The position numbers and the translations under genes were made by a program. Below are positions 28,885-34,258 of a stretch of DNA of 64,000 bases, one piece after another. The DNA comes from Candidatus Thorarchaeota archaeon. Lineage in GTDB: Archaea > Asgardarchaeota > Thorarchaeia > Thorarchaeales > Thorarchaeaceae. Positions within the stretch are counted from its first letter, which is position 1. Each line of letters begins with the position of its first letter. The stretch spans positions 1 to 64,000 of the forward strand of contig DXJO01000001.1 in assembly GCA_019057475.1 (NCBI GenBank). Direction: 5' to 3'. The notes beneath the pieces are model-generated. The model saw only the letters and a program-made list of their open reading frames with translations. It was not told where the DNA came from and made no database searches.

Positions 28885-28987
28885 ATCAGAGTTGGTTCTA
28901 ACCCAATAATCTTAAAACAATCCGACTGAATCAATTATCATAGACGAGACCGCGCGGCTGTTGTCTCGATTTGGGAGAATAAACAAC

Positions 28988-29269
28988 ATGTCATATCTTA
29001 CGTGGCGTGAACACATACGCTCAGGACCGGTGTGTCTTGGAGTAATTGTCGTGATTGTGGGTGCAGTTATTGCTTTGCTACCCTCCATCAATGAAGCATA
29101 TGATTTCCTAGCACCTAATACTGTCCTTGCAGGCGGGTTAATCGCCGTTCTTGGACTTGTCTGCATAGTGTGCGGTTTCTTCTTCACCAAGAAGAAGCGC
29201 GACTCAGTGCTCACACCAGTAGACACGCGTGTAGATGATACACCCCCCCCACCTCCACCGCCAGACTAA
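28988..29269 (+). CDS. Small two-span membrane protein with polyproline tail
   Basis: This 93-residue protein has two hydrophobic helices (VCLGVIVVIVGAVIALL and AGGLIAVLGLVCIVCGFFF). A basic KKKR stop-transfer signal follows, then a soluble tail ending in TPPPPPPPD. Polyproline tails can bind SH3-, WW- or profilin-type proteins; profilins occur in Asgard archaea, so the tail deserves attention. I chose the ATG of MSYLTWREH. A hairpin, CGAGAC/GTCTCG (28945-28968), lies in its leader. Function is unknown. Confidence 0.6.
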   Translation: MSYLTWREHIRSGPVCLGVIVVIVGAVIALLPSINEAYDFLAPNTVLAGGLIAVLGLVCIVCGFFFTKKKRDSVLTPVDTRVDDTPPPPPPPD

Positions 29270-31672: not shown

Positions 31673-32872
31673 CTACCTTTTTTCCATGAATGCTTCCAGC
31701 CTGTCCATTGCCTCTGTAATAATCTCGGGAGGCGGAAGGTAAACACTCCTGAAATGACTAGCTCCGTATATTGGGCAGAAACCTGAACCTGGCACAAAAA
31801 CCACCCCTGTTTCGTTTAGGATATCAAGGACGAATTCCATGTCGTTCTTCCATCTGTTCCTGAGATCGATTTTAGGCATGATATAGAAAGCAGCATCAGG
31901 TATTGTTGTAGAGATTGAATCAATGGAGTTGAGCCGAGCGGCAATGAGGTCTCGACGGCCTCTCAATTTTCGCATTAATCCCTTAAGATGACTTCCGTCG
32001 CTTCTGAGAGCCGCAGCAGTAGCCATCTGAGCAGGAGCATTTGCACAGATTCTGATTCTGGCTTGCCGGACCATTGCATCTCTCAAAGGCTCCAACTCTC
32101 CGTCATTATCGTGGAAATACACGTATCCAACTCTCCAGCCAGGTGCAAGATACACCTTGCTCACACCATTGAATCCAACAACTGGGACATCACCAGCGGC
32201 TTTGACCATTGGGGTCTGATCCTTGTCGAAAGTAAGCTGATCATAGATTTCATCCGAGATGAGAGGAAGATTGTGCTCTCCTGCAATGCTAGCTATCTCT
32301 TTCAGCACCTTGTGGTCATAGACGGCACCGGCCGGGTTGTTGGGGTTTATGACAAGTATCCCAACTGTCTTCTCATTGATCTTGCTCCTCAGGTCATCCA
32401 CGTCAGGGTTCCAGCCCTCCTCCTCAACCGTCCGATAAGTGATGGGAACACCTCCGAAGTAGCCCATGTATGCTATGTATGGGGGATATGCAGGGCCGGG
32501 GATTAAGAACTCTGAGCCATTGCTCACCAAGGCTCCGGCAAGGAACTGAATTGCCTCGGAAACTCCGTTTGTAACGAGCACCCTTGACGGGTCGATGTCA
32601 ATGCCATTCACTCTCTTCTCTTTTTCAGCGGCTGCTTGTTTGAGTTCATCGAGCCCCTCTGAAGGGGCATAGCCATTAGTTCCATCTCGAAGAGCCTTGT
32701 AGAACGCGTCAATCATGAACTCGGGAGTCTTCCAGTCGTACTTGATTGGGTCTCCAATATTCAAGTAGAGCGCAGTTTGACGCTTTGCTTTCTCATATCT
32801 CCTCGCAGCCACAACGATGTCGCGAATGGCATACCTGAGATTTGCTGCTCGGTCTGTAATTGCAAGATTCAT
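31673..32872 (-). CDS. Class I/II aminotransferase, alanine/aspartate type
   Basis: This 399-residue pyridoxal-phosphate enzyme has NIGDPIKYDWKTP, VTNGVSEAIQFL, LVINPNNPAGAVYDHKVLKE, LISDEIYDQLTFD, and NGVSKVYLAPGWRVGYVYF with the Schiff-base lysine in GVSKVY. The C-terminal arginine contact region appears as HFRSVYLPPPE. The fold-type I subgroup is that of archaeal alanine/aspartate aminotransferases. I chose ATG MNLAITDRA; an in-frame ATG 24 bases earlier is less likely. It converges with the SNAP-like gene, leaving 8 bases between stops. Confidence 0.93.
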   Translation of the reverse strand: MNLAITDRAANLRYAIRDIVVAARRYEKAKRQTALYLNIGDPIKYDWKTPEFMIDAFYKALRDGTNGYAPSEGLDELKQAAAEKEKRVNGIDIDPSRVLVTNGVSEAIQFLAGALVSNGSEFLIPGPAYPPYIAYMGYFGGVPITYRTVEEEGWNPDVDDLRSKINEKTVGILVINPNNPAGAVYDHKVLKEIASIAGEHNLPLISDEIYDQLTFDKDQTPMVKAAGDVPVVGFNGVSKVYLAPGWRVGYVYFHDNDGELEPLRDAMVRQARIRICANAPAQMATAAALRSDGSHLKGLMRKLRGRRDLIAARLNSIDSISTTIPDAAFYIMPKIDLRNRWKNDMEFVLDILNETGVVFVPGSGFCPIYGASHFRSVYLPPPEIITEAMDRLEAFMEKR

Positions 32873-32927: not shown

Positions 32928-33317
32928 CTAATTGCTCAGCAGTGTACCAACTTCGCGAGCGTATTTCCTCATCTGGGTTACTGCTAACCCCATTGAGGTG
33001 AGGTCCTTTGCAGCGCCCATGAGGAGAAAGTTACCTGCATGAGAGAGAACAACAAACCCTCCCTTTCCACGGATCACGACCTCGTAAAGCTCGTCAAGGC
33101 CCAGCTTGTCGGCAGCCATCTCTCCTGTCATGAGCAAAGCAGCACTTACGGCTGCCATCAAGTCCGGATCTGCGTCTGATTCTTCTGTTGCAAAATAGGC
33201 TAACTTGACTCCCTGTTTGCTCACTACGGCAATGGCATCGAGGTCGGCGTAATTAGTCAGGCCCATTAGAAGCTCTACAAGCTCCCTTTCCTTCTGGGGG
33301 TCGATCTGTGATGACAT
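32928..33317 (-). CDS. Roadblock/LC7 domain protein
   Basis: This 129-residue protein is a single roadblock fold. Helix 1 is ERELVELLMGLTNYADLDAI. Strands follow as AVVSKQGVKLAYFA, then the long helix PDLMAAVSAALLMTGEMAAD, ELYEVVIRGKGGFVVLSHAG and FLLMGAAKDLTSMG. Roadblock proteins dimerise and, in eukaryotes and Asgard archaea, pair with small GTPases or dynein-type complexes. The ATG chosen has AAGGAG 8 bases upstream. It is 32 bases after the gelsolin-like gene, in one operon, so the two probably share a cytoskeletal or membrane task. Confidence 0.88.
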   Translation of the reverse strand: MSSQIDPQKERELVELLMGLTNYADLDAIAVVSKQGVKLAYFATEESDADPDLMAAVSAALLMTGEMAADKLGLDELYEVVIRGKGGFVVLSHAGNFLLMGAAKDLTSMGLAVTQMRKYAREVGTLLSN

Positions 33318-33349
33318 TCTCAATACTCCTTGTGTTTACGGGTCGATGC

Positions 33350-34258
33350 TCATTTTGCAACGAGCTTGCTCTTCTTCTTGCCCGCTTTCGACTTGGTCTT
33401 CGCGGCCTCTGGCTTCTTATCTTCGACCTCAGTACGGAAGAATGTGATGAGGTCACTAAGCCTTTCCTTCATCTCTGCCTTGATTGGACTTAGGATAGCG
33501 TCAGGTGTGCCTTTCAAAAGCTCAATGCCCAACACCTTTCCGTTCTTCACAATCACACGTGGAATGAAACCCTCTGCCATAAATGTGCCTTCAGGCGGGT
33601 CCGCCACTTTCTCAAAACGTCTCTCTACCTTCTCCTGTCCGAAAACTGAGATTTTGTGTTCCGCTACCGTGAACAATGTGTTGTACACGATTAGTAGCTC
33701 TCTCTGATAACCTTCCGGAGGTGCAACAGTTTCAAGCTCCTTTATCATCTCATTAATCTGAGCTTGATTGATTGATGATGCGGCAGCACTTGTTGGCTGT
33801 GATCTAGCCGCTGCGGCTGGGACCGGAGGGGGTCTTGTTGGTTTTAGCGCAGGTGGTTTGGGGGGTGGTGCAGTTGGAGTCGTTGTGGTTTCTCCTGCTG
33901 AGGGTTGAGTCCTTTCCACCTTTGGCGTAGGAGGTCTAGGTGGAGGTGCCTTGTCTCCTGGCTTTAGCACCTTTATTGCAGCAGTTGTGCCGTCAAGGGC
34001 AGTAAAGAATGTAGGGGGTTCTTCGCCTTCATCCACTGGGCGCACCTTGAAGTTGAAACCATACTCAGACCTGAGGTTTGTGGCAACTCTCGCGCCGATG
34101 AACTTCCTCCTGATATTCGCCTGACTTCCTTTCCACAGGTAAATGCTCTTCGACGAATCATCCACGACGCATAACACTTTTGTAGAATCTAAGGTCTCTT
34201 TTGTGAGCTCAAGTTCTTGTAGAGTGCCATCCTCGAAGACTTCGTAGCCTGTAACCAT
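33350..34258 (-). CDS. Gelsolin-like domain protein with proline-rich linker
   Basis: The protein has 302 residues. Residues 20-90 match a gelsolin repeat: KVLCVVDDSSKSIYLWKGSQ, then RRKFIGARVATNLRSEYGFN and FKVRPVDEGEEPPTFF. The linker at 95-160 is packed with PPP motifs (APPPRPPTPK, APPPKPPALK, TRPPPVPAAAA), a possible ligand for profilin. The C-terminal domain (ELLIVYNTLFTVAEHKISVF onward) is of unknown alpha/beta type with a lysine-rich tail. Short gelsolins that act on actin are known from Thorarchaeia. Actin binding here is inferred. Confidence 0.7.
   Translation of the reverse strand: MVTGYEVFEDGTLQELELTKETLDSTKVLCVVDDSSKSIYLWKGSQANIRRKFIGARVATNLRSEYGFNFKVRPVDEGEEPPTFFTALDGTTAAIKVLKPGDKAPPPRPPTPKVERTQPSAGETTTTPTAPPPKPPALKPTRPPPVPAAAARSQPTSAAASSINQAQINEMIKELETVAPPEGYQRELLIVYNTLFTVAEHKISVFGQEKVERRFEKVADPPEGTFMAEGFIPRVIVKNGKVLGIELLKGTPDAILSPIKAEMKERLSDLITFFRTEVEDKKPEAAKTKSKAGKKKSKLVAK

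Follow-up and report, generated by a model that had tools for sequence, protein, structure and literature searches.

A one-domain gelsolin and its dedicated roadblock protein in Asgard archaea: a possible link between actin and small GTPases

A gelsolin-like gene and a roadblock/LC7 gene that lie side by side in a Thorarchaeota genome form what is, on well-supported grounds, a functional module kept across much of the Asgard archaea. The gelsolin-like protein is of the 1DGelX type, a class that is barely described so far and that joins one gelsolin domain to a C-terminal domain of another kind (X), and its neighbour is a roadblock protein dedicated to it. Whether the two constitute an ancient, nearly universal two-component Asgard module, in which actin regulation is placed under GTPase control via the dedicated roadblock, is in our judgment an evenly balanced question. 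The answer bears on Asgard actin regulation and on whether small GTPases controlled actin before eukaryotes, and the protein set to be tested is small and concrete: a near-universal gelsolin protein, its own roadblock, and the GTPases that cluster with them in some lineages.

The Gene Pair and Its Setting

The window, that is, the whole stretch of 64,000 nucleotides analysed here, comes from a host genome of 3.34 Mb in 56 contigs, and the comparison genomes were grouped in families numbered f1 (the host's own) to f28. Gelsolin-like and roadblock genes had been claimed to adjoin one another at this locus, and both are present, on the minus strand and 32 bp apart, with the roadblock gene downstream (Table 1). 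For the latter an ATG start suffices, and the TTG at 33323 implied by the list of open reading frames is unneeded. Co-transcription of the two genes is suggested by their spacing and by the conservation of the pair. An aminotransferase gene lies downstream of the pair in 14 of the 15 Thorarchaeota loci examined, while gene-neighbourhood comparison showed none near the pair in other families; it may belong to the transcription unit as a third gene, but only in Thorarchaeota. Neither a scan of the locus for bacterial promoters and terminators nor a search for TATA-like patterns returned anything above chance. The named close relatives of the gelsolin-X gene are from Candidatus Thorarchaeota, at identities of up to 93%. 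Elsewhere in the window (28961-29269), a small predicted membrane protein carries a C-terminal run of seven prolines (DTPPPPPPPD) and may be another polyproline ligand.

Table 1. Positions in the window of the gelsolin-X gene, its parts and the genes downstream
Feature	Position	Strand	Remarks or basis
Whole gelsolin-X gene, 1DGelX-type	33350..34258	(-)	302 aa, ATG start
Gelsolin domain of the 1DGelX protein, residues 1-90	33989..34258	(-)	phmmer, AF2, Foldseek to 7c2f
Disordered proline-rich linker, residues about 91-163	33770..33988	(-)	pLDDT, Pro content
C-terminal X domain, residues about 164-280	33419..33769	(-)	AF2 fold, conservation
Lysine-rich C-terminal tail, end KKSKLVAK	33353..33418	(-)	Alignment of homologues
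Dedicated roadblock/LC7 gene	32928..33317	(-)	129 aa from ATG; Robl_LC7 E=4e-12
Class I/II aminotransferase	31673..32872	(-)	PF00155 E=2.8e-56

The Gelsolin Domain

The initial annotation had placed a gelsolin domain at residues 20-90, and such a fold was found at residues 1-90. The closest solved relative is the Thorarchaeota ProGel of PDB entry 7c2f, which phmmer matched to residues 1-88 at E=1.4e-15. In the AlphaFold2 (AF2) model, the mean pLDDT of residues 1-90 is at least 90 in every ten-residue block (range 90-98), and Foldseek superposed this part on 7c2f with a TMt of 0.90 and an rmsd of 1.0 over 84 columns; many gelsolins were matched at E of about 1e-4 or better, in keeping with a Gelsolin/ADF-H-like fold. 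The Pfam model PF00626 returned E=0.014 and 15.6 bits, below its gathering cut-off of 21, and 17.8 bits in a second search; to judge by sequence comparison, the domain is distant from the Pfam model yet clear by its closer homologues.

The score below the Pfam cut-off would suit a domain that has kept the gelsolin fold in a structural or protein-binding role and does not bind actin, like the gelsolin domains of the Sec23 and Sec24 coat proteins, and a neighbouring vWA gene in f2, f11, f27 and f28 loosely recalls, by analogy only, the combination of trunk and gelsolin modules in COPII. We consider such a role very unlikely, however, since the best matches in both sequence and structure are actin-binding gelsolins, led by the ProGel that was solved on actin, and no Sec23 or Sec24 occurs among the 50 fold matches listed. 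The recurring vWA neighbour itself (e.g., L046:5724-7898) encodes a protein of about 725 aa whose C-terminus holds a vWA domain and which, in f2, also contains a long stretch rich in proline; tried as a relative of Sec23/24, it gave no Sec23 match in PDB or Pfam.

Actin binding by the 1DGelX gelsolin domain is what we infer from its closeness to ProGel, a domain crystallised on actin. The long helix of gelsolins faces actin, and this helix is well conserved across the 1DGelX family. On it, the acidic calcium-site residue (Glu) of the host's own two-domain gelsolin (2DGel) is replaced by Arg50, which is conserved in 95% of the family, and Lys52 is conserved in 91%. With a single gelsolin domain and this acidic residue replaced, the protein falls outside the calcium-regulated 2DGel type, and because the replacement holds throughout the family the domain would be expected to act without calcium. 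Akil et al. are said to have reported in 2020 that one-domain Asgard gelsolins do so. The host genome also encodes a separate ProGel, the 2DGel and one actin (E=3e-131).

The X Domain and the C-Terminal Tail

In the AF2 fold of the X domain, an initial helix is followed by five antiparallel strands and then by a second, long helix; block pLDDT values are mostly 82-96, and the mean is 88.9 in the AF2 run with 89 homologues. Residues R186, G224, R234, E246 and L248 are 88-98% conserved, and R186, R234 and E246 are each kept in 98% of 43 sequences. Relatives beyond the Asgards were looked for in Pfam, NCBIfam and the PDB: no family model was found in Pfam or NCBIfam, a profile search of the PDB returned no sequence relative up to E=5, and a fold search of the PDB returned none at E<=0.001. 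The earlier description of a C-terminal domain of unknown type accordingly holds, and the modelled fold indicates that this region is a real folded domain, conserved phylum-wide and matching no known family. As an unclassified conserved domain, X is present in almost every Asgard genome. The idea that X is a second gelsolin domain was rejected, as its modelled fold is a different one and the searches brought up no gelsolin; likewise, a PH-like assignment was not used, the Foldseek matches to Ran-binding and NF1 Sec-PH domains being weak (E about 1). Two paralogues in f2 (L067:3729-5072 and L114:652-1941) combine a single gelsolin domain with two X domains in tandem. The tail that follows X, ending in KLVAK, is kept in the aligned Thorarchaeota homologues and missing from the other families shown, and its lysine-rich sequence is possibly a binding motif.

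One gelsolin domain followed by a non-gelsolin C-terminal domain is the make-up of the 1DGelX class. Within the literature searched, that name occurs only in PMC9433394, which counts 1DGelX (one gelsolin domain plus an unknown domain) as a class in Asgard genomes, citing Akil et al. (2020), and gives two or three copies per Lokiarchaeon genome; the meaning of “X” is taken here from the name and from its usage in that paper.

The Linker and Profilin

Between the profile-defined domains lie 84 aa, of which 24% are proline, with three PPP triplets and pLDDT values mostly of 50-70. The linker is proline-rich in all Thorarchaeota homologues and much less so in most other families, and PPP runs are found in every Thorarchaeota linker, in two of three f12 linkers and in few others. 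The conserved feature of the linker is thus that of a flexible spacer, and a general role in binding profilin is weakened because PPP runs are nearly confined to the Thorarchaeota and f12. Locally, such a role is plausible, since the host genome encodes a profilin closely related to the solved profilin 7pbh (E=1.2e-57) and a Thorarchaeota profilin binds the polyproline of VASP weakly, while no such binding was seen with those of Loki and Odin (PMC8410842). A profilin-binding linker may consequently be proposed for Thor-like lineages only, and as a lineage-specific trait at most; should f2 and f3 correspond to Loki and Odin, the pattern of PPP runs would match the behaviour of the profilins. 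On host contig C21 (L163:1015-1389 and 1489-1896), a tandem gene next to that of the profilin codes for a short protein of similar appearance, which may be a second profilin.

Distribution of 1DGelX and Conservation of the Pair

With a profile built on the full protein, matches at E<=1e-10 were obtained in 212 of 228 Asgard genomes, although the weaker ones may be other gelsolin types, and in all 45 high-quality genomes (completeness of 90% or more, contamination of 5% or less). Many genomes hold several 1DGelX copies, the roadblock-linked copy usually scoring best; no viral copies were found. In f9 (L044, L050, L091, L104), a second copy is followed by a gene for a multi-zinc-ribbon protein and not by a roadblock. 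Two further gelsolin architectures were encountered. In f21, a 925-aa protein (L133:2227-5001, G108:C860) fuses an N-terminal gelsolin domain to a P-loop-like GDFGAGKS region; it has no Pfam match. In f7, a 484-aa protein (L068:1218-2669, G042:C128), present on one contig of one genome, appears to hold four gelsolin domains in frame (PF00626 E=3.9e-41, four stretches). Published Asgard gelsolins are described as having mainly one or two domains, and three to six are typical of eukaryotes.

The roadblock protein matches Robl_LC7 (PF03259) with 46.1 bits against a cut-off of 23. A roadblock gene lies within 300 bp downstream of 1DGelX in 12 of about 26 sampled families, with all Thorarchaeota loci among them: f1 (27/27 loci), f2 (16/16 where the contig continues), f3 (2/2), f7 (1/1), f9 (4/4 primary copies), f12 (3/3), f15 (3/5), f17 (1/1), f19 (2/2), f22 (2/2), f26 (1/1) and f27 (4/4). 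It is inverted, and thus convergent, yet still adjacent at one f15 locus and at three of f27, so that adjacency is more than operon read-through. The flanking genes on both sides vary between families, and the pair therefore outlives general gene order. Adjacency is looser in f24 and f25, where a roadblock lies 0.6-0.9 kb from 1DGelX (on the opposite strand in one f25 locus), and it is absent in f4, f5, f11, f13, f16, f18, f20, f23 and f28, the roadblock orthologue of f18 (two genomes) lying about 6 kb away. A neighbour in f4 (L035 2642-3415, L052 5045-5818) was considered as a second roadblock type and not counted, since profile comparison with the linked roadblocks gave E=0.019 and a probability of 2.5%.

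Adjacency of this kind is hardly fortuitous, because it recurs in 12 families although roadblock matches in the host genome number only 14, which at about one gene per kb we estimate as roughly 0.4% of genes, far below the observed rate of adjacency. As adjacency is inherited, the loci are not independent trials, and the argument is one of persistence over deep divergence and through inversions. It might still be held that the genes are neighbours through co-expression or shared inheritance alone, each with its own role and unconnected physically or by pathway: they stand apart in many families, and the aminotransferase and an NAD(P)HX repair enzyme, which look unrelated, are likewise retained in particular lineages. 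We judge this unlikely, given that no other neighbour of 1DGelX is kept as widely as the roadblock (55 loci; the next cluster has 24), that adjacency survives inversion, and that roadblocks are sparse, at about 14 matches per genome.

Orthology sharpens the case for a module. A profile of the linked roadblock found an orthologue in each of the 25 genomes searched, with best matches of 1e-28 to 1e-55; in the host genome, its own protein scored 6.6e-55 and the next roadblock 7.6e-11. A maximum-likelihood tree groups 31 linked roadblocks with 11 orthologues that are not adjacent, in a single clade supported at 99/100 and set on a long stem, and none of the host genome's other roadblocks falls inside it; the inner order of the outgroup is unsure owing to its long branches. 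The linked roadblock is consequently one orthologous family, separate from the genome's other roadblocks. Conservation of the pair, which the initial annotation had proposed as a check, was thus strongly borne out, and extends far beyond the genus. No earlier description of a gelsolin-roadblock linkage was found in the open-access, non-preprint literature searched.

Small GTPases

The expected association of the pair with small GTPases drew independent support. Two families in which the dedicated roadblock is not the neighbour, f20 (three genomes) and f21, have a Ras-family gene directly downstream of 1DGelX (E=8.5e-51 and 4.5e-49) and beyond it another GTPase gene, of which the f20 copy has MglA as its best PDB relative (E=4e-20); in f21, a different roadblock lies upstream. 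The two f3 genomes share the gene order Ras-family, NAD(P)HX epimerase/dehydratase, 1DGelX and roadblock, with genes that overlap or nearly so. No GTPase gene was found in the immediate 1DGelX cluster in Thorarchaeota or in most families. Ras-family genes are common in these genomes (24 matches in the host, 49-57 in f20 and 17 to 57 overall), and for this reason the linkage is supportive but not decisive; three families alone could in part reflect chance. The host genome also has an MglAB-like cluster (L162:2590-5568, host C34:62589-65567) in which an MglA-like GTPase gene is flanked on both sides by roadblock genes, with four roadblock matches within about 3 kb.

Roadblocks can also serve as scaffolds without GTPases, as in Ragulator or dynein light chains. 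A GTPase-free roadblock dimer seated on X or the linker might dimerise or localise 1DGelX, and actin would then be bundled, capped or anchored constitutively. The adjacency and dedicated orthology of the roadblock and the scarcity of GTPase genes in the cluster accord with such a scaffold, and a role of this kind has been proposed for a Thorarchaeota roadblock that lacks a basic patch (PMC10933270). We nonetheless think it rather improbable in view of the Ras and MglA-like GTPases encoded together with 1DGelX in f20 and f21, and the Ras in f3. The same 2024 structural survey of Asgard roadblocks, in which gelsolin is not mentioned, describes a gene layout generally without pairing of GTPases and regulators, and in MK-D1 GTPase genes are generally not in operons with roadblock genes (PMC10933270).

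Proposed Mechanism

In the GTPase-controlled module that we favour, 1DGelX would bind actin through its one gelsolin domain, of the ProGel/cofilin type and independent of calcium, and the flexible spacer would join this domain to X, which would dock the protein. The co-encoded roadblock, presumably a homodimer by family precedent, would act as the dedicated partner of 1DGelX, contacting it via X or the linker, and would tie it to a small GTPase of the Ras-like or MglA-like kind, probably at the membrane. Actin sequestering, capping or severing would thereby come under GTPase control.

A bolder extension, which we advance tentatively and regard as somewhat doubtful, is that a primordial GTPase-to-actin unit already operated in the Asgard common ancestor, running from a Ras/MglA-type GTPase through a roadblock dimer to a one-domain gelsolin with X as adaptor. 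If true, it would be comparable in logic to the control of eukaryotic actin by Rho and Rac. The conserved pair suggests an ancient link of actin control to GTPase switches before eukaryotes arose.

Comparison With Known Systems

The polarity system of MglA and MglB (Myxococcus, Thermus) shares the logic of a roadblock joined to a Ras-like GTPase, MglB being a homodimeric roadblock that serves as GAP and GEF of MglA (PMC10933270), and an MglA-like gene adjoins 1DGelX in f20 and f21. As described, however, that system involves neither gelsolin nor actin, and the linked Asgard roadblock is a separate orthologous family. The roadblocks 7f8m and 9jue have the same Robl_LC7 fold as the linked roadblock (E=1.9e-7 and 6.6e-7), but sequence similarity is low and by their scores they stand outside the gelsolin-linked family.

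Among gelsolins, ProGel is the nearest counterpart: its domain is 39% identical to that of 1DGelX, the backbones agree closely, and in neither does the long helix bear an acidic calcium-site residue. ProGel is the domain alone (about 100 aa), whereas 1DGelX adds the linker, the X domain and the basic tail. The Asgard 2DGel proteins likewise have gelsolin domains that act on actin, but two of them, with calcium sites, in contrast to the one of 1DGelX with its Arg50 and conserved Lys52. Finally, the 1DGelX of PMC9433394 has the same plan, a single gelsolin domain with an unrelated region C-terminal to it; structure, function, gene context and a roadblock link are not reported in the accessible part of that paper, whereas here the X domain is delimited, modelled and found conserved phylum-wide.
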